Below are positions 18,279-27,812 of a stretch of 64,000 nucleotides of DNA, one piece after another (the stretch's first letter is position 1; the number at the start of each line of letters is the position of its first letter). Location of the stretch: NCBI GenBank assembly GCA_021832345.1, contig JAKBKY010000002.1, positions 124,001 to 188,000 of the forward strand, in the 5' to 3' direction. Both the position numbers and the translations under genes were made by a program. Under the pieces are notes generated by a model that saw nothing but the letters and a program-made list of their open reading frames with translations, was not told the DNA's origin and searched no databases. The stretch comes from a bacterium (GTDB lineage: Bacteria > Vulcanimicrobiota > Vulcanimicrobiia > Vulcanimicrobiales > Vulcanimicrobiaceae).

Positions 18279-18445
18279 GAGTTTTCCGGTGGGGCGAACA
18301 TCGGGCTAAACTCCCGGTGTTCACCTGCCGACCACACCATATGGATGCGGCTGGATTACCTCCAGCACGAAGGTAAAGCCGCAGGCAGACCCGACTGATT
18401 GACGGTCCGCCAAAGAGACTCCAACTTCGTGCGGAGGTTTTTGCT
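18279..18445 (+). promoter_or_regulatory. Structured mRNA leader of flgF, candidate riboswitch
   Basis: This 167-base gap holds ordered pairing. Hairpin 1 is 18296-18322 (GAACATCGGG, loop CTAAACT, CCCGGTGTTC). Hairpin 2 joins TGCGGCT (18346-18352) to AGCCGCA (18377-18383) and TTACCT (18356-18361) to AGGTAA (18371-18376) around the loop CCAGCACGA. Hairpin 3 is 18384-18411. The loop GCACGA (18365-18370), together with CC at 18362-18363, can pair with TCGTGCGG at 18427-18434, whose last two bases begin the Shine-Dalgarno GGAGG (18433-18437). A rival fold pairs ACCTCC..GCACGAAG with CTTCGTGCGGAGGT, also hiding the ribosome site. This looks like an expression switch. Class and ligand are unknown. 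Confidence 0.55.
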
Positions 18446-19255
18446 TTGATACGTGGCCTTTATACGGCAGCCAGCGGAGCGCTCGTCGCGCAGACGATGG
18501 CGAACACGATCGCGAACAATCTCGCGAACGTCGACACCGCCGGCTTCAAGCGGACGTTGTTGCAGATCCAATCTGCACCGTCGCTCGACCTCTACCGTTT
18601 TCAGACCGATCCCGGCCACACGCCGGGCCGGGCTCGCGCCGGCGTTGCGGTCTCCCAGCCGGTCGGGGCGCTTGGCACCGGGGCGTGGGTCTACGACACG
18701 CCGACGGTCTTCACGCAAGGCGCGCTCCAGCAGACGGGAAACCCGCTGGACGTGGCGCTCTCGGGCAGCAATGCGTTCTTCTCCGTTCAGACGCCGCAGG
18801 GCGTCCGATATACGCGCGACGGTGAGTTTGTGCGCAATCAGAACGGCTACCTCTCAACGCAGAACGGCGATTTGGTTCTTGGACAGAATGGACCGATTGC
18901 GTTGCCGATCGGTGGTTTCCAGATCGCCCAAGACGGAACCATCACGCAACGAGGTCAGGTTCTCACCCAAACGAAGCAGATTGTCGACCAACTGCAGATC
19001 ACGCAGTTCGGCAACCTCGTCGCCTTGCGTCCGCAGGGCGGCAACCTCTTCGTGAATACCGGTGCCGCGCGCCCGGCTCCCGCTACGGCCGCCGGTGTGC
19101 AGCAGGGCTTCCTTGAGAAGAGCAACGCCGGCGTGGTCAAGTCGATGGTCGATATGATCACCGCCGAGCGTTGGTTTCAGGCCAACATCAAGTCCATCAG
19201 TGCCGAAGACGCGGCGACCAAACAAGCCCTAACCGATGTCGCCATCGCCAACTAA
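18446..19255 (+). CDS. flgF: Flagellar rod protein FlgF-like
   Basis: A 269-residue rod/hook-basal protein beginning with the unusual start TTG. GGAGG lies eight bases upstream at 18433-18437. The N-terminus is IRGLYTAASGALVAQ with ANNLANVDTAGFKR, and the C-terminus has GFLEKSNAGVVKSMVDMIT. It precedes a second, near-identical-type gene (flgG), and the pair order fits FlgF then FlgG. FlgF/FlgG assignment by sight is not absolute. Confidence 0.85.
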   Translation: MIRGLYTAASGALVAQTMANTIANNLANVDTAGFKRTLLQIQSAPSLDLYRFQTDPGHTPGRARAGVAVSQPVGALGTGAWVYDTPTVFTQGALQQTGNPLDVALSGSNAFFSVQTPQGVRYTRDGEFVRNQNGYLSTQNGDLVLGQNGPIALPIGGFQIAQDGTITQRGQVLTQTKQIVDQLQITQFGNLVALRPQGGNLFVNTGAARPAPATAAGVQQGFLEKSNAGVVKSMVDMITAERWFQANIKSISAEDAATKQALTDVAIAN

Positions 19256-19273
19256 AGGAGCAAAGACGACGCC

Positions 19274-20065
19274 ATGATGCGAGCCCTCTACAGCGCTGCC
19301 AGCGGCATGATTGCCCAGCAGTACAACATGGATACCATCTCCAACAACTTGGCGAACGTCGATACGACGGGCTTTCGTCGCAACGTTGCGCGCTTTCAGG
19401 ATCTGGTCTACCAGCAACTGCAGGCACCGGGTGCCCCGGTCGGCGCAAGCGTCGTTCCGGTCGGTCAGGACGTGGGCTTGGGCGTTCGGGTCTCCGACTC
19501 AGAGAAGATCTTCACGCAAGGCTCGCTGATCCAGACGAACAACCCGCTGGATGTCGCGATCCAGGGTAATGGCTTCTTCCAAGTCACGAAACCCGACGGC
19601 ACGACCGCCTACACCCGCGATGGGTCGTTCAAGGTCGATGCCAACGGCGCGATCGTGACGGCCGCCGGTTACTTCGTCCAGCCGCAGATTACGATTCCTC
19701 AGAATGCGACGCAGGTGCAGGTCGGCCCCGATGGGACCGTCACGGCCTTGATTCCGGGATCGACCCAGCCACAGCTTCTGGGCCAGCTTCAGCTCGCCAA
19801 CTTCGTTAATCCGGCGGGACTCTCGCCCGTCGATGGGGGTAATCTCTACACCGAGACCGCCGCCAGTGGTGCGCCCGTCGTTTCGCAGCCGGGCTTGAAC
19901 GGGGCGGGCTCGCTGCAAGGCGGCTTCCTTGAGAACTCCAACGTCCAGGTCGTTCAAGAGATCGTCAACATGATCGTGGCGCAACGTGCCTTCGAGGCGA
20001 ACTCCAAGACCATCAGCGCTGCCGATCAGATGATCCAGACGGCCGTGAATATGTATACGCCCTAA
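19274..20065 (+). CDS. flgG: Flagellar distal rod protein FlgG
   Basis: A 263-residue distal rod protein. It starts with MMRALYSAASGMIAQQYNMD and ISNNLANVDTTGFRR, carries the family TQGSLIQTNNPLDVAIQG and YTRDGSF mid-protein motifs, and ends with GGFLENSNVQVVQEIVNMI. The length of about 260 fits FlgG. It ends in TAATG shared with flgA. Confidence 0.93.
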   Translation: MMRALYSAASGMIAQQYNMDTISNNLANVDTTGFRRNVARFQDLVYQQLQAPGAPVGASVVPVGQDVGLGVRVSDSEKIFTQGSLIQTNNPLDVAIQGNGFFQVTKPDGTTAYTRDGSFKVDANGAIVTAAGYFVQPQITIPQNATQVQVGPDGTVTALIPGSTQPQLLGQLQLANFVNPAGLSPVDGGNLYTETAASGAPVVSQPGLNGAGSLQGGFLENSNVQVVQEIVNMIVAQRAFEANSKTISAADQMIQTAVNMYTP

Positions 20066-20799
20066 TGTCGTCCGGCATGCGCGCGCTCGTCGCCTTCGTC
20101 GTCCTGCTCCTCGGGACTTGTGCGGTCGTTCCTTCCGCACGAGCCGGGCAGCAGGGCTGGCAGGTCGTGAGCGGCGCTCGATTGACGACGCTGGCACGCG
20201 CCGTCATCGCACGTCTGCCGCGACGCCGCGACCAGGCATATCTGCCGGTCGCAAGCGTTGCAGATCAGCGTGTGCCGGCCGGGCGTATCGGCGTCGACGT
20301 CGCGTCGGCGCTCGTCAGTCCGTCCTACGTCAACGTTCCGATTCGTTTGACGCTGGACGGACGGCTGTTGCGAACGATCTTCGTCGGCTATCGGGTGCAG
20401 CGCTACGTTCGCATGGCCGTTGCCGCGCACGATCTGGCACCTGGAACGGTGTTGGCGGCAGCCGATCTCACGATGCACCTCGTTCCGTTTGTAGGGCAGC
20501 AACCCAACGGCACCCGCGTTCTGATCGGTCGCAAGATCTTCGAACCGGTGACCAAAGGCCAGCCGATCGCCATCTGGCAGACGCACGTCAATCAGATCGT
20601 GCAGGCCGGGACGACGGTGGTCTTACTCGTTCGCGGTTACGGCGTTGCCCTGGTCGCCGACGTCGTCGCCCGAACGAGCGGGGGACTGGGCGACGAGGTC
20701 TCGCTCTATAACCCCTCGACCAACAAAATGCTCTCGGGCGTCGTGACCGGCCCCGGGCGCGCCGAACTCGATCTTCGTGGAGGCTCCTCAACATGGTGA
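20065..20799 (+). CDS. flgA: Flagellar P-ring assembly chaperone FlgA
   Basis: A 244-residue periplasmic protein. The signal peptide covers about residues 1-27 (VAFVVLLLGTCAVVPSARA). The C-terminal half is an SAF domain (AHDLAPGTVLAAADLTMH near residue 125; KGQPIAIWQT near 172). FlgA guides FlgI during P-ring formation. Its start touches the flgG stop and its end overlaps flgH by seven bases, so flgA-flgH-flgI is a coupled ring module. Confidence 0.85.
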   Translation: MSSGMRALVAFVVLLLGTCAVVPSARAGQQGWQVVSGARLTTLARAVIARLPRRRDQAYLPVASVADQRVPAGRIGVDVASALVSPSYVNVPIRLTLDGRLLRTIFVGYRVQRYVRMAVAAHDLAPGTVLAAADLTMHLVPFVGQQPNGTRVLIGRKIFEPVTKGQPIAIWQTHVNQIVQAGTTVVLLVRGYGVALVADVVARTSGGLGDEVSLYNPSTNKMLSGVVTGPGRAELDLRGGSSTW

Positions 20800-21401
20800 A
20801 GCGATTTCATCGGCTCGGTCTGATCCTGGCGATCTGCGCGCTCTGTGCCCCGCTTGCCGTTTCAGCCGATACGCTCTATCAAGCGGCGCCGCCCCCGGTT
20901 GGCCCGGGCCACCCGCTGCAGCTCGGCCCCGACCATCGTGCGAGCCAGGTCGGCGATCTCGTCTACGTCGTCTTTAACTTCGCGGTCAATAGCGCCAGCT
21001 CGAATGTGGTTCAGAACGCCAAAGGGTACAAGGTGAACCTCGCTGCCGGCGTCGGCAATGCGGCACTCAGTTTTCTGCGTTTCCCCACGGGGATCGGCGG
21101 CACGACCGGCACTCAGTCGAGTCGTACGCGCAACGGGAGCAATGCGTTCACCTCCTCGATGATGGCGACGGTCACCAATGTTCTGCCGAGCGGCGTCCTG
21201 CAAATCTCGGGCTCGCAGAATCTGATCATCAACGGCCAGACGCAGGTACTCAACGTGGTTGGTTACATCCGCCCGGAGGATATCGACAGCACCGACAGCG
21301 TCCCCTCATCGCGCATCGCCGACGTCCGGGCGAACTTCGGCGGCGACTTTCAGAATCCGCATCGCGGGATATTGCAGCGCGTCGTAGACTTTTTGTTCTA
21401 G
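20793..21401 (+). CDS. flgH: Flagellar L-ring protein FlgH
   Basis: A 202-residue L-ring protein. It contains the FlgH landmarks VGDLVYVVF near residue 52, ASSNVVQN, TNVLPSGVLQISGSQNLIING near residue 130 and VGYIRPEDIDSTDSV near 152. The N-terminal signal (LILAICALCAPLAVSA) has Cys at 16 and 19 but no clean lipobox, where the usual FlgH is a lipoprotein. An L ring implies an outer membrane. It sits 13 bases before flgI. Confidence 0.9.
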   Translation: MVKRFHRLGLILAICALCAPLAVSADTLYQAAPPPVGPGHPLQLGPDHRASQVGDLVYVVFNFAVNSASSNVVQNAKGYKVNLAAGVGNAALSFLRFPTGIGGTTGTQSSRTRNGSNAFTSSMMATVTNVLPSGVLQISGSQNLIINGQTQVLNVVGYIRPEDIDSTDSVPSSRIADVRANFGGDFQNPHRGILQRVVDFLF

Positions 21402-21414
21402 GTAAGGCAAGATT

Positions 21415-22551
21415 ATGCAGATGAAACCGGTGCGGTGGTTCGGATCCGTGATGACGGTAGCGTTAGCTGCTTCGATGTATAGTACCTATCCCGCTGCGGC
21501 CGCTTCATCCCAGCGCGTCGAGATCAAGAATATTGCAAAAGTGCAGGGTGTGACCGGCAATCAGCTCGTGGGCTATGGGGTGGTTGTCGGACTCGCCGGC
21601 ACCGGCGATACGACGCAGTCGATCTTCACCAGCCAAACGGTGGCCAACATCCTCGAATCCTTTGGTTTGAACATCGCCTCGCAGAACGTTCGAACGCGCG
21701 ACGTGGCCGCGGTGATCGTGACGGCGATCCTTCCCCCGTTTGCTCACTCCGGCGACAATATCGACGTTGACGTCTCCGCGATGGGCGATGCCAGCTCGCT
21801 GCAGGGCGGCACGCTGGTGCTAACCCAACTGCGAGCGGCCAACAACCTCGTGTATGCCACGGCCCAAGGCCCGATCTCGGTCGGCGGCTTTACTGCAGGC
21901 ATCCCCGGGAACTCGATCACGCAGAACTATACCTCGGTCGGCCGCATCCCCAACGGCGGGGTCGTCGCTCGCACGATGGTGACCCCGTTACTCAGTCGCC
22001 CAAACGGTTTCAACTACGTCTTGACGACGCCGGATTTTCGGACGGCCGCCAATCTCGCCGGGACGCTCAACGCCTACTTCGGCTACGGAACGGCGCATGC
22101 AAGCAACGCCGAGACGGTCCACGTGACGCTGCCGCCCTCCTATCGCGGCAATACGGTGCAGTTCCTCGCCGATGCGTCGAACTTGAAGCTGACGCAAGAT
22201 CGCTTGGCCAAAGTCGTGATGAACGAACGGACGGGGACCATCGTCTTCGGCGGCGACATCAAGCTTGCGCCCTGTGCGATCGCCCACGGGAACCTGACCA
22301 TCACGATCACGACGACCAACAAAGTCGTCCAGCCGCCGCCCTTTACCCTCGCCTCACCCGGCCTGCAGACCAATACGCGAGTCACCGCCGTGCAGGGGAA
22401 GAAGCATCTGACGTTCATCGCCGGGGCGGCGACGCTCTCTTCGGTCGTGCGTGCGCTCAACGCCATCGGTGCGACGCCTCGGGACCTCATCGCCATCGTG
22501 CAAGCACTGCGCCAAGCAGGCGCCCTTCAAGCCGAAATCGAGATTCAATGA
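21415..22551 (+). CDS. flgI: Flagellar P-ring protein FlgI
   Basis: A 378-residue protein. A signal peptide of about 29 residues (VMTVALAASMYSTYPAAAA) is followed by the FlgI core: VQGVTGNQLVGYGVVVGLAG, FTSQTVANILESFG, NVAAVIVTA-like stretches, DVSAMGDASSLQGGTLVLT and TGTIVFGGDIKLAPCAIAHG. It forms the ring around the rod in the periplasm or peptidoglycan layer. The end overlaps the flgJ start by four bases. Confidence 0.95.
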   Translation: MQMKPVRWFGSVMTVALAASMYSTYPAAAASSQRVEIKNIAKVQGVTGNQLVGYGVVVGLAGTGDTTQSIFTSQTVANILESFGLNIASQNVRTRDVAAVIVTAILPPFAHSGDNIDVDVSAMGDASSLQGGTLVLTQLRAANNLVYATAQGPISVGGFTAGIPGNSITQNYTSVGRIPNGGVVARTMVTPLLSRPNGFNYVLTTPDFRTAANLAGTLNAYFGYGTAHASNAETVHVTLPPSYRGNTVQFLADASNLKLTQDRLAKVVMNERTGTIVFGGDIKLAPCAIAHGNLTITITTTNKVVQPPPFTLASPGLQTNTRVTAVQGKKHLTFIAGAATLSSVVRALNAIGATPRDLIAIVQALRQAGALQAEIEIQ

Positions 22552-22898
22552 TGTCGCTCGCGCCGATCGCTGCGCCGGTTCCACAGGCTGCGCCGCTCAC
22601 CGCCGTGCAGAAGGAGGCCTTGGCGCATCTGCACAAGGTCGCGACGCAGTTCGAGGGGATCTTCGTGGATATGCTGCTCAAGTCCATGCGCAATACCGTT
22701 CCGAAAAACTCGATCTTCGGCAAGCAGAGCCTCTCGGAGAACGTCTTTGGTTCGATGCTCGACCAGCAGCGCGCGCAGGCGATCGCCGCCAGCGGTTCGT
22801 TTGGTTTGGCCAAGGTACTCGAGCAGCAGATGCGTTCGGCGGTGCTCGGCGATGCTGCAGCCGAGGCCAAGACGCACGTGCGGAGCGTCGGGCCGTGA
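22548..22898 (+). CDS. flgJ: Rod-binding protein, FlgJ N-terminal type
   Basis: A 116-residue protein matching only the rod-binding part of FlgJ: ATQFEGIFVDMLLKSMRNTV near residue 31, then NVFGSMLDQQRAQAIA and GSFGLAKVLEQQM. The muramidase domain of enteric FlgJ is missing, as in many other phyla. It may act as a rod cap, with wall cutting left to another enzyme not in this window. It overlaps flgI and flgN by four bases each. Confidence 0.88.
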   Translation: MMSLAPIAAPVPQAAPLTAVQKEALAHLHKVATQFEGIFVDMLLKSMRNTVPKNSIFGKQSLSENVFGSMLDQQRAQAIAASGSFGLAKVLEQQMRSAVLGDAAAEAKTHVRSVGP

Positions 22899-23374
22899 GC
22901 GATTCTTGGGATCTCTTCATGGACGCACTCGTCCAAGAGTCAGGGGCGCTGTCGGCAATGAATGCAGCGGCACTGGAGTTAACCGGGGCTCTGGTTGCTC
23001 GTGATCCGGAGGCCATCGCGCAAGCGGAGCGCGCTCTGGATGCGAGCCGGCAGCTCTACTCGAAGGCAGCGGGAGTGCGGCGTTCGATGCAGGTGCGCGG
23101 ATTCGGCGCGGCAACGCTACGCCAAGTGTGCGCGCACGCGCCGCGTCACCTCGCTGCGACCTTCAATGCTCGCCTCTCGGAACTGGTGACCCTCTCGATC
23201 TCGCTTGGAATCACGATCGCCAACAACAAGTCGTTGATTCTCGCCGGAATGGAGCGCCTCTTGCAGGTTACGACGGCTTTGCAGCGGGCCTCGAATGAAG
23301 AACCCGGGACCTACCGTCGCCGCGGTTTCGTGCCGCCGCCCTCCAACAGCGTCTTAGTGAGTAGCCGAGCATGA
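22895..23374 (+). CDS. flgN: Flagellar export chaperone FlgN-like
   Basis: A 159-residue, almost wholly helical protein. The GTG start at 22895 overlaps the flgJ stop. It lies directly before flgK and flgL, the clients of FlgN. The N-terminal part fits the FlgN pattern (ALVQESGALSAMNAAALELTG), and the NNKSLILAGMERLL segment near residues 110-123 is a FlgN hallmark. The identification rests on context plus that segment. Confidence 0.8.
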   Translation: MSDSWDLFMDALVQESGALSAMNAAALELTGALVARDPEAIAQAERALDASRQLYSKAAGVRRSMQVRGFGAATLRQVCAHAPRHLAATFNARLSELVTLSISLGITIANNKSLILAGMERLLQVTTALQRASNEEPGTYRRRGFVPPPSNSVLVSSRA

Positions 23375-25524
23375 GCAGTTTTCCGCAGGGCAGTTTCTTC
23401 GGGGTCGATCTGATGGGGACGTCACTCAACGCCTTTCAAGAGGCGGAGAACGTCACCTCGAACAACATCGCCAACGTCAACACGCCCGGCGCCTCCCGCC
23501 AAGTCGCCCAACTTAACGAGTTCGCGCCGATCTCCGGATCCACGGGGTATGCTGCGCACGTCTCGGGGACGTTCGGCGAGGGTGTGGTCGTCCAGCAGAT
23601 CCAGCGCATTCACAGCAATAGCTACGACACGCTCTTTCGCGCGGCGTCCTCATCGCAAAACTACTATACGGTGGAGCAGAACGCGCTTCAGGCGTTCCAA
23701 TCCACGCTCGGCGATCCCAACTCCGGGATCGGCACGCAGTTCACCGCCTTCCAAAGCGCCGTCAATCAACTGGTGACCCAGGCCGGAGGCGGTTCGAGCA
23801 CCTCGGCTCGCGCCAACGTGATCACGCAAGCGCAAGCCTTGGCCAGTGCCCTCAACAATGCGGCGAACACCGTGTTGCAGCAGAAGAGTCAAGTGCTTGC
23901 GCAAGGCTCTGCGATCGTGACGCAGGTCAACGGCATCCTCGATCAAATCGCCGCGCTCAACGGGCAGATTCGCGCCTCGACGGCCGTGGGAGACAACCCG
24001 AATACGTTCGCCGATCAGCGCGATCAGTTGATCAACAAACTTTCGCAGTATCTCTCGACCCAGACGGCGATCCAACCCGACGGTTCGACGCTGGTGACGG
24101 TCAACGGCCAGGCGCTGGTCAACGACACGGTTGCCTACCATCTTGCCGCTCCGACGATCGGCACCGCATCGAACGGTTCGCCGATCTTCAAGATCAACTT
24201 TGCGACGACGCCGCCGGCTGCCGGCACCGCCCCGGGCATTCCGCTTGGGAGCGGGCAGCTCGCCGGTTTGCAGGATCTCTACAACAACAAGCTTACGGTC
24301 TACGGCCGGCAACTCGATCAGTTCGCCTCCTCGATGGCAAACGAGGTCGATCGCGTCACTCAAGCGGGCTACGATCAGAACGGGCAGGCGGGCGTCGGGC
24401 TCTTTCAGCCGATCGTCGGAAGCCTGCCGATCTCGGCGGGAAACATCAAGGTGGGGATCACCGATCCCTCACAGTTGCCGGCGGCGCTGGCGTCGACCGC
24501 GGCCGGGACGCTGGTTGTGCCGATGAACTCCGCCAACAACACCGTGGATACCTCGGCGCAGATCGACGGCAATACCTCGCTTGCCAACCCGCCGGCAGCC
24601 GCCGGAATCGCCGGCAAGCTGACGGTCACGGTGGATGGCGTAGCGCAAACGTTCAACTACAACACCGGCACCGGCGGCAACGCGAATACGATCAACGCCT
24701 TCATCACGAACTTCAATGCAGCCCACTTAGGCGTGACGGCTTCTTTCAACGCCTCCTCGCAGTCGATCGTCTTTGCGCGCGATCCGGTCAATACCGACCT
24801 GGTCCATCGGGCGGCGCAGGGCACCAATCCGACCACCCCGACGTTCACGATCAGCGACAGTAACTATAGTGGGGCCACTCCCGCCGCTTCGCTGCTCGGC
24901 GCGCTGGGCGCCAATGCCATCAGCGGCGTCCCGCAAAATGCAAGCAACGCCTTTGCCGCAAACGACAACAGCAACGCCAATGCCCTCAATCAGGTGTTCT
25001 CCTCAAACGTCGGCGTCCCGGCGCTCGAAACCACCAGTGCCGCTGCAGCCGTTGCCGGTACGCCGATGACCGTGCCGCTTCCGGCCGGCGTGAACAACGT
25101 CGCCGTAGGGCAGGTCCTCACGATCGACGCCCAACCCGGCGGCGCGCCGCCTCAAGAGAACGTGGTGGTCTCGGCGGTCTCGTTCACTGGGGGCATCGAA
25201 TCGGTCACCTTTACGCCTGCGAACAGCCATTTGGCGGGATTCTCAATCGCCAGCGCCCAAGTGCAGACGCTCGGACAGTTCTACGGTCAGCTCATCACCC
25301 AGGTTGGGCTCGATACGCAGACCGCGATTACCGGAACGCAGACCCAGACGAATCTGGCCAACAATATCAATGCGACCAGGCAGAGCATCGACGGCATCAA
25401 CATCGACGAAGAGACACAGAATCTTATCAAATATCAGAATGCTTACCAGGCAGCAGCTCAAACCATCAACGTGCTCAACCAACTGCTCAACACCGTCATC
25501 AATAACCTCGGAGTCGGGCAGTAA
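23371..25524 (+). CDS. flgK: Hook-filament junction protein FlgK (HAP1)
   Basis: A 717-residue FlgK. The N-terminus holds the rod/hook motif NNIANVNTPGASRQ near residue 31, followed by the HAP1 region QQIQRIHSNSYDTLFR. The C-terminus is ISIDEET-like: SIDGINIDEETQNLIKYQ and AYQAAAQTINVLNQLL. The middle (residues 380-600) is a long, Ser/Thr/Ala/Asn-rich insert, making it longer than the usual 450-550 residues, probably surface-exposed and variable. It overlaps flgN by four bases. Confidence 0.93.
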   Translation: MSSFPQGSFFGVDLMGTSLNAFQEAENVTSNNIANVNTPGASRQVAQLNEFAPISGSTGYAAHVSGTFGEGVVVQQIQRIHSNSYDTLFRAASSSQNYYTVEQNALQAFQSTLGDPNSGIGTQFTAFQSAVNQLVTQAGGGSSTSARANVITQAQALASALNNAANTVLQQKSQVLAQGSAIVTQVNGILDQIAALNGQIRASTAVGDNPNTFADQRDQLINKLSQYLSTQTAIQPDGSTLVTVNGQALVNDTVAYHLAAPTIGTASNGSPIFKINFATTPPAAGTAPGIPLGSGQLAGLQDLYNNKLTVYGRQLDQFASSMANEVDRVTQAGYDQNGQAGVGLFQPIVGSLPISAGNIKVGITDPSQLPAALASTAAGTLVVPMNSANNTVDTSAQIDGNTSLANPPAAAGIAGKLTVTVDGVAQTFNYNTGTGGNANTINAFITNFNAAHLGVTASFNASSQSIVFARDPVNTDLVHRAAQGTNPTTPTFTISDSNYSGATPAASLLGALGANAISGVPQNASNAFAANDNSNANALNQVFSSNVGVPALETTSAAAAVAGTPMTVPLPAGVNNVAVGQVLTIDAQPGGAPPQENVVVSAVSFTGGIESVTFTPANSHLAGFSIASAQVQTLGQFYGQLITQVGLDTQTAITGTQTQTNLANNINATRQSIDGINIDEETQNLIKYQNAYQAAAQTINVLNQLLNTVINNLGVGQ

Positions 25525-26866: not shown

Positions 26867-27370
26867 ATGAGCGAAACCGATACTGCGGCGCCTGCCCAAG
26901 CCCAGGCCGACCAAATCACCGTGACCCTGCCGCGTTTCGGTGATTTCACCTACGCCGAGCAGGACGTGATCCGGTTTCCGTGGGGACTGCCGGGCTTTGC
27001 GCTCTTGCGGCGATGGTTGGCCGTCTCGCTGCCGAGCCAGCCGAACTTCGTGTGGCTCCAGAGTCTCGACGACCTCAACGTGGCCCTTCCCACCGCCGAT
27101 CCCTGGCTGGTCTTTGAGAGCTACGACCCGAAGCTGCCGCCCTACGCGGTCGCGGCGCTGGAGATCCGGGATGCCGGCGAGTTCACCATCCTCTGCGTGG
27201 TGGTCGTGACCGGAGAGGCCCAGGAGATGACCATGAACCTCCTGGCGCCGATCGTCGTGAACCTGCGCACTCGCCGGGCCCGCCAGATCATGCTGGAGAA
27301 CGCGCCCTACTCCGTCCGCGAGCCGATGCCGCGCACCGCGCCGCCGGCAAGCGAGCCCGCCAAGGCTTGA
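26867..27370 (+). CDS. fliW: Flagellar assembly factor FliW
   Basis: A 167-residue FliW. Family features are FPWGLPGFALLRRWL near residues 44-58, PWLVFESYDPKL, and the central FTILCVVVVTG and MTMNLLAPIVVNLRTRRARQ near 125-144. FliW binds free flagellin and, when flagellin is scarce, frees itself to inhibit CsrA. It is next to csrA and flagellin, the same module as in Bacillus. Confidence 0.93.
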   Translation: MSETDTAAPAQAQADQITVTLPRFGDFTYAEQDVIRFPWGLPGFALLRRWLAVSLPSQPNFVWLQSLDDLNVALPTADPWLVFESYDPKLPPYAVAALEIRDAGEFTILCVVVVTGEAQEMTMNLLAPIVVNLRTRRARQIMLENAPYSVREPMPRTAPPASEPAKA

Positions 27371-27451: not shown

Positions 27452-27718
27452 GTGCTGGTGCTCAGCCGGAAGATCAATCAGTCGATCATGGTCGGTGACG
27501 ACGTTCGCATCGTCATCGTTTCGGTCGACCGCGACCAGGTCAAGCTTGGGATCGAGGCGCCGCGCGATATCCCGGTCCACCGATCTGAGGTCTACGAAGA
27601 GATCCGCCGGAGTAACCAGTCGGCGGCTTCAGGTTTGCGCCCTGCGGCAGCGCCCGCTCGGCCCGCCGGTGCGGCCCTCCTGCGGCCGCGCGGCGCTGGG
27701 CAGGGTACAAAGCCCTAA
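27452..27718 (+). CDS. csrA: Carbon storage regulator CsrA
   Basis: An 88-residue CsrA with a GTG start and GGAGGG seven bases upstream. The core is MLVLSRKINQSIMVGDDV and IRIVSVDRD-like VIVSVDRDQVKLGIEAPRDI, with RSEVYEEI. The C-terminal tail (about 25 Ala/Pro-rich residues) is longer than in enteric CsrA; FliW-regulated CsrA proteins often carry extra C-terminal sequence. It dimerises and blocks translation of mRNAs with GGA hairpins, here probably flagellin's. Its stop codon lies inside the next promoter. Confidence 0.93.
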   Translation: MLVLSRKINQSIMVGDDVRIVIVSVDRDQVKLGIEAPRDIPVHRSEVYEEIRRSNQSAASGLRPAAAPARPAGAALLRPRGAGQGTKP

Positions 27719-27743
27719 AGTTCGGTCCCGGCAGGGCCGATAG
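27716..27743 (+). promoter_or_regulatory. Sigma-28 (FliA) promoter of flagellin
   Basis: TAAAGTTC at 27716-27723 and GCCGATAG at 27736-27743, 12 bases apart, match the sigma-28 consensus TAAAGTTT / GCCGATAA in 14 of 16 positions. The -35 box uses the csrA stop codon. Transcription would begin near 27750 and leave a leader of about 65 bases before flagellin. Confidence 0.8.
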
Positions 27744-27756
27744 AAACAGGGAGGGG

Positions 27757-27812
27757 GGCAGGATGCCTCAGCCTTGAGACTAGTCTGCACGCGCATGCGT
27801 GTTCATGGAGGA
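27757..27812 (+). promoter_or_regulatory. Candidate CsrA sites in the flagellin leader
   Basis: Site 1 is a mini-hairpin GGCA-GGA-TGCC at 27757-27767, presenting GGA in the loop as CsrA prefers. Site 2 is ATGGAGGA at 27805-27812, overlapping the flagellin Shine-Dalgarno sequence. A further stem CACGC..GCGTG lies between at 27788-27801. Two sites with one on the ribosome site repeat the Bacillus hag layout and fit the fliW-csrA pair just upstream. Confidence 0.6.

Follow-up and report, generated by a model that had tools for sequence, protein, structure and literature searches.

A structured RNA conserved throughout one bacterial order lies directly upstream of the flagellar rod gene flgF. This RNA, here called the rod-hook leader RNA, probably acts in cis on translation initiation at two genes of a genome, flgF and the hook gene flgE. 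This role is predicted from a fold whose helices covary among relatives and from a second helix that competes with the fold for the Shine-Dalgarno (SD) site. The window referred to below is the whole 64,000-nucleotide stretch of DNA analysed, from a member of the Vulcanimicrobiaceae.

The flgF leader and its promoter

The flgF leader of the window is made up of the following elements, given with the DNA that precedes it and the gene that follows.

18296-18322, + strand: inverted repeat GAACATCGGG-CTAAACT-CCCGGTGTTC, with 10-bp arms (18296-18305/18313-18322) around the -35 TAAA
18307-18331, + strand: sigma28 (FliA)-type promoter by consensus match, -35 TAAAC at 18307-18311 and -10 GCCGA at 18327-18331
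about 18340-18445, + strand: flgF leader RNA, a conserved structured RNA with P1, GGA bulge, P2 and P3
18347-18352/18377-18382, + strand: P1, GCGGCU/AGCCGC, 6 bp, with covariation
18353-18355, + strand: invariant GGA bulge between P1 and P2, on the 5' side
18356-18361/18371-18376, + strand: P2, UUACCU/AGGUAA, with covariation
18362-18370, + strand: 9-nt loop of the P1-P2 hairpin, containing CCAGCACGA
18358-18372, + strand: anti-SD strand ACCUCCAGCACGAAG, comprising the P2 5' strand plus loop and forming 14 bp with 18425-18438
18384-18391/18404-18411, + strand: P3 (hairpin 18384-18411), loop GACUGAUUGA at 18393-18402, consensus GAnnGAnnGA
18425-18438, + strand: 3' partner CUUCGUGCGGAGGU, including the flgF SD GGAGG at 18433-18437
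18427-18434, + strand: UCGUGCGG, which can pair with the P1-P2 hairpin loop and overlaps the SD
18446-19255, + strand: flgF, rod protein, TTG start, first gene of the flgF-flgG-flgA-flgH-flgI-... cluster

The strand ACCUCC(A)GCACGAAG can pair with the 3' partner (18358-18372/18425-18438) in a rival helix of 14 bp with one bulged A, and because this helix occupies the bases of P2 the P1/P2 hairpin and the SD-masked fold are mutually exclusive. Computed energies for the window copy, which leave out pseudoknots and tertiary contacts, are -25.5 kcal/mol for the hairpin fold and -32.2 kcal/mol for the SD-masked fold, indicating that masking is the default in this copy. The leader is more stably folded than its shuffled counterparts (z -2.46), and far stronger support for the fold comes from the relatives described below than from this comparison. 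The product of the gene matches TIGR02490 (FlgF) at E 9.9e-52, 3 bits below the cut-off, as well as the FlgEFG subfamily and Pfam rod domains above cut-off, and the next gene is FlgG by TIGR02488, also above cut-off. A TTG start is unusual for a structural gene, and the one at flgF is common to most relatives and to most genera of family f1.

A first-pass annotation of this DNA had described three hairpins, a loop pairing to 18427-18434 that reaches into the SD, a rival helix drawing on the same bases, and a weak start codon. The loop pairing, the mutually exclusive folds and the TTG at 18446 are all borne out, and all three hairpins are present, of which P1/P2 and P3 belong to the RNA. The 5'-most hairpin was rejected as a part of it, as this encloses the -35 element of the sigma28-type promoter and is promoter/terminator DNA instead.

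The promoter sequence TAAA/TAAG-N~12-(G/A)CCGA is present in 43/44 leaders of flgF and the NHL-repeat protein gene described below, at a near-constant 6-11 nt 5' of the aligned RNA (29-34 nt in a few genera). An inverted repeat around the TAAA, with arms of 6-14 bp, is found in 16/43 flgF leaders compared with 4.8% of shuffles, and in some relatives a T run follows it. The window repeat at 18296-18322 looks like a terminator that ends the preceding flgB-flgC-fliE operon and overlaps the promoter after it. The 5'-most hairpin thus placed probably lies outside the leader RNA, which probably starts at about 18335-18342. In the window (18296-18331) and in relatives, the upstream terminator-like repeat and the downstream sigma28-type promoter use the same bases. 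Throughout the order the flgF-flgG-flgA-flgH-flgI-flgJ-(flgN)-flgK cluster (window 18307-25524) stands behind a sigma28-type promoter; the usual targets of sigma28 are late filament genes.

Distribution and covariation

A DNA search of 60 relatives located the leader in ten genera, in every case at flgF except for a second copy in one genome (G009). The covariance model R1, built from eleven sequences, recovers the window leader at 18341-18444 (E 2.5e-19, the window sequence itself being in the model) and gives matches in 46/149 genomes of the phylum. Two weak matches (L063, L064) lack the invariant letters or a flagellar context and were discarded as chance, leaving 45 sites, i.e. 43 flgF leaders, one leader of an NHL-repeat protein gene (L065, G009) and one of flgN (L062/L107). 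Searching these 149 genomes with FlgF protein picks out the genomes already found by the RNA search: all 43 members of the order that have an orthologous flgF carry the RNA before it (42 with a FlgF match at E <=1e-60, one whose flgF is cut by a contig end), and genomes of the order without that flgF gave no convincing RNA match in the R1 and core-model searches. Beyond the phylum, a FlgF contig search returned only remote homologues from Alphaproteobacteria and Nitrospirota, in whose genomes the motif was not found, a result that shows little by itself. The NHL-repeat copy (L065:2001-2104) is an extra promoter plus RNA, with its own sigma28-type promoter, before the gene for a secreted protein that is ScyD/ScyE-like, below cut-off; this is the sole non-flagellar gene seen with the RNA.

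The same RNA is found at flgE. A core model (R2), made from the 43 flgF leaders together with the NHL-repeat and flgN leaders and containing no flgE leader, produced new matches at flgF in G056 (E 7.6e-4), flgE in G010 (0.012), fliK in G133 (0.044) and flgE in G067 (0.18). Among flgE starts collected by a FlgE protein search, R2 matches 24 leaders, just 5' of the start and in a place equivalent to that at flgF. A written motif rule (GGAC, P1, P3 and the loop GAnn[GA]AnnGA) describes 45/47 flgE leaders of the order, compared with 1/4,700 dinucleotide shuffles and 0/224 upstream windows, and the flgE copy of the source genome lies at G000:C1:89648-89706. The flgE copies are intercistronic, directly 3' of a conserved upstream flagellar gene, and there are about two copies of the RNA per genome, in most genomes both flagellar. 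A model built for flgE (R3) matches flgE copies strongly, flgF copies weakly and the fliK copy; the rest are chance, among them eight matches at E 0.03-0.4 which on inspection lack the invariant letters or a flagellar context and look like chance. In other families of the phylum the RNA stands before flgF (G056), flgE (G067), and fliK and flgN (G133), and inspection of the f13 and f14 flgE leaders found the motif absent. The RNA, first annotated as a leader of flgF, is thus not confined to that gene, being also at flgE in the same genomes and at flgE, fliK and flgN elsewhere in the phylum.

Two leaders depart from the common form. The flgE leader of G056 (L159, family f5) has P1-P2 with GGA and a GACCUC/GAGGUC anti-SD, apparently without P3, and is possibly a minimal or decaying form. 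The flgN leader of G133 (L062/L107) carries the motif without evident SD pairing; here CUGCCGCGG-UUUU, some 27 nt 5' of the SD, offers a pairing partner to CUGCGGCAG, and the two may make up a platform of the terminator type.

The helices covary in both gene sets. In the 45-sequence alignment, which is mostly flgF, 96.7% of pair cells are paired, 11/17 pairs have changed on both sides and the covariation score is 0.419; sliding the structure gave 0.092 at best, and no shuffle equalled the score; this alignment was fitted to the structure, a favourable bias that is countered by the slid control and by the independent flgE set. That second set, chosen by FlgE protein and then by the motif rule, alone gives 94.9% paired cells, 16/20 pairs changed on both sides and a covariation score of 0.534, slid structures reaching no more than 0.130. 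A joint MAFFT alignment of flgF and flgE leaders put P1 out of register and was set aside. In P3, both-side changes are seen at 6/7 pairs in the flgF set and 8/9 in the flgE set. The consensus is a P1 of mostly 6-7 bp, a 5' GGA bulge facing no more than one or two purines, a P2 of mostly 4-6 bp, a short linker, and a P3 of mostly 7-9 bp closed by the loop GAnnGAnnGA. The letters of P1 and P3 vary freely while GGA and the three GA steps are nearly fixed, which is the pattern of a folded receptor and not of simple hairpins. The gap before flgF is thus conserved among relatives, and covarying helices occur at a constant place upstream of orthologues (43 flgF, 45 flgE), as expected of a structured cis-regulatory leader RNA.

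The competing helix at the ribosome site

The 5' strand of P2 is also the anti-SD, and its letters follow those of the ribosome site. Cognate anti-SD/SD pairing scores -23.3 at flgF, against -21.4 for permuted partners (p ~0.002, 19 genera), and -10.9 against -9.5 at flgE (p ~0.0005, 20 groups). In f1 flgF leaders an anti-SD resembling CCUUUGCACGAG faces CUCGUGCGGAGG, in f2 flgF leaders the unrelated letters CUGCCCUC face GAGGGCAG at the same place, and in one f2 member CUGCCUUC faces GGGAGGCAG; in the fliK and f11 flgE leaders ACCUC/GACCUC lies opposite GAGGU/GAGGUC. Judged from these sequence comparisons, the SD-masking helix that competes with P2 coevolves independently at flgF and flgE, so that a mutually exclusive helix masking the ribosome site is kept by coevolution, as looked for in a translational riboswitch. 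In some flgE leaders the anti-SD helix reaches only -3 to -8 kcal/mol, and given this weakness the expression platform may differ there. In translational riboswitches with loop-to-SD pairing, such as SAM-II and preQ1-II, the ribosome site is contested by a loop or an anti-SD strand. The rod-hook RNA, as a putative switch, shows the same competition, but here the SD is paired by the 5' side of a domain helix together with its loop, and the letters differ between lineages with the pairing kept.

That initiation of translation is the step controlled is also indicated by the uneven occurrence of the U run after the SD. An intrinsic terminator or antiterminator, in which the anti-SD helix and a run of U4-6 would end transcription of the flgF operon, is suggested by the 4-6 U that follow the helix in most f1 flgF leaders, but is very improbable as the run is absent from f2 flgF leaders, L058 and the flgE leaders, the helix encloses about 50-60 nt, P3 included, and the U stretch falls exactly in the spacer between SD and start.

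Mode of action and possible effectors

The first-pass view of a new structured, riboswitch-like leader that masks the flgF ribosome site is upheld by its conservation, its covariation and the coevolving SD helix, as is the statement that it matches no known class, c-di-GMP-I included. A scan of the window with Rfam 15 gave no match to c-di-GMP-I (RF01051), and a scan of the leader region with permissive filters gave 0 matches at E up to 10. Rfam covariance models found no family at ten relative loci at the gathering score, and at six flgE loci, with E values up to 5 allowed, the sole match was to an unrelated snoRNA model, on the other strand and far below the gathering score. Termite-flg (RF01729), flg-Rhizobiales (RF01736) and c-di-GMP-II (RF01786), all in the library scanned, gave no match. 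Termite-flg and flg-Rhizobiales RNAs are structured leaders upstream of flagellar genes, of unknown function. They belong to other lineages (termite gut only, and Rhizobiales, respectively). Both motifs are listed in a table of Weinberg et al. 2010 (PMC2864571). A literature search, mostly outside subscription journals, found no published leader RNA of this type at flgE/flgF. Flagellar leader RNAs as such are already known (c-di-GMP riboswitches, Termite-flg, flg-Rhizobiales); we regard the rod-hook RNA as a translational leader RNA of a new class, its gene set of rod plus hook being unusual.

In the mechanism we propose, the 5' domain (P1, GGA and P2, with the adjoining P3) would fold first during RNA synthesis, and P1/P2 and P3 would be held together, most likely through contacts between GGA and the GA loop while an effector is bound. 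In the held state the anti-SD would be trapped in P2 and the ribosome site free, whereas in the unheld state the anti-SD strand would pair with the SD and block initiation. Distal-rod and hook synthesis would in this way answer to one signal. The scheme builds on the conserved fold, the covariation and the competing SD helix, and adds to these a predicted contact between the P3 loop and the GGA bulge, a predicted switching direction (bound = on) and a putative effector. Most likely this would be a factor acting in trans and related to the flagellum, with about an even chance that this is an RNA-binding protein, either CsrA or a dedicated one.

It is a tentative proposal, possible though on balance improbable, that the RNA is a new riboswitch class outside Rfam sensing a small molecule, most plausibly c-di-GMP or another nucleotide signal, and gating distal-rod and hook synthesis together. 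The build is aptamer-like: helices of variable letters and near-constant length hold invariant unpaired GGA and GA..GA..GA, and an SD-masking expression platform follows. In G009 an additional copy stands before the gene of the secreted NHL-repeat protein. Flagellar operons are among the classical targets of c-di-GMP riboswitches. Genomes with the RNA are rich in GGDEF proteins, with 12 in the source genome, and despite this c-di-GMP-I riboswitches are nearly absent, being found in 1/149 genomes of the phylum and there outside the order. The c-di-GMP-I riboswitch resembles the rod-hook RNA as a flagellar-gene leader in many bacteria and as a compact aptamer with conserved unpaired letters, but the core letters differ, and neither RF01051 nor any other Rfam family is matched. 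Furthermore the almost purely flagellar gene set at two copies per genome is narrower than that of known second-messenger riboswitches, and two flagellar copies in most genomes are unlike most metabolite riboswitches.

CsrA antagonised by FliW is an unlikely explanation in its simple form, in which CsrA bound to the invariant GGA (and the SD GGA) would repress rod and hook translation until titrated by FliW. GGA is the core recognition triplet of CsrA and is invariant in the leader; downstream of flgF, its flagellar cluster also encodes csrA (27452-27718) and fliW (26867-27370), and the only motif-bearing genomes in which FliW was not found are four fragmented drafts. Several flagellar mRNAs of Campylobacter are repressed by CsrA, which FliW titrates (PMC4894983), and CsrA-FliW control of flagellin (hag in Bacillus, flaA in Campylobacter; PMC4894983) likewise acts on translation at a flagellar SD with GGA present. 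However, the rod-hook RNA is a covarying two-domain structure that includes P3, its GGA lies in a bulge or internal loop, not in a hairpin loop, and is without the usual preceding A, and the second GGA at the SD of most flgF leaders is mostly missing from flgE ribosome sites (AAAGGU, GAGGU). CsrA would need neither the coevolving anti-SD nor the deeply conserved P3 loop GAnnGAnnGA, and flagellated families whose flgE leaders lack the motif (G135, G136, G139) have FliW as well. Indeed, the window has a textbook CsrA hairpin, GGC-AGGAU-GCC, quite unlike the rod-hook RNA, in the leader of fliC. This fliC leader (27716-27811) consists of a sigma28-type promoter TAAAGTT...GCCGATAG, then the hairpin and the SD GGAGGA, with csrA and fliW directly upstream, and by analogy suggests a CsrA-FliW-flagellin circuit in the window as in Bacillus.

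A self-acting or passive structure that works without an effector, i.e. an RNA thermometer, a co-transcriptional folding brake or a coupling element, is somewhat less likely again. Competing helices alone can set a translation rate, and the flgE copies come right after a conserved flagellar gene, but thermometers and brakes need neither a letter-exact GGA and GAnnGAnnGA nor a P3 that stands outside SD masking.

Transcription cascades and export checkpoints are the usual explanation for the order in which a flagellum is assembled. The rod-hook RNA places one fold on FlgF, the product of the first distal-rod gene of the cluster, and on FlgE, the hook, parts whose amounts need to be matched to assembly, and in a distant relative the same fold is on hook-length control (fliK). 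If the small-molecule riboswitch were true, one ligand would time a step of flagellar assembly at translation. The paired copies at flgF and flgE offer two independent leaders on which ligands can be screened. The rod-hook leader RNA is thus a testable case of a translational checkpoint shared by rod and hook, which would be run by a leader RNA of a class outside Rfam.
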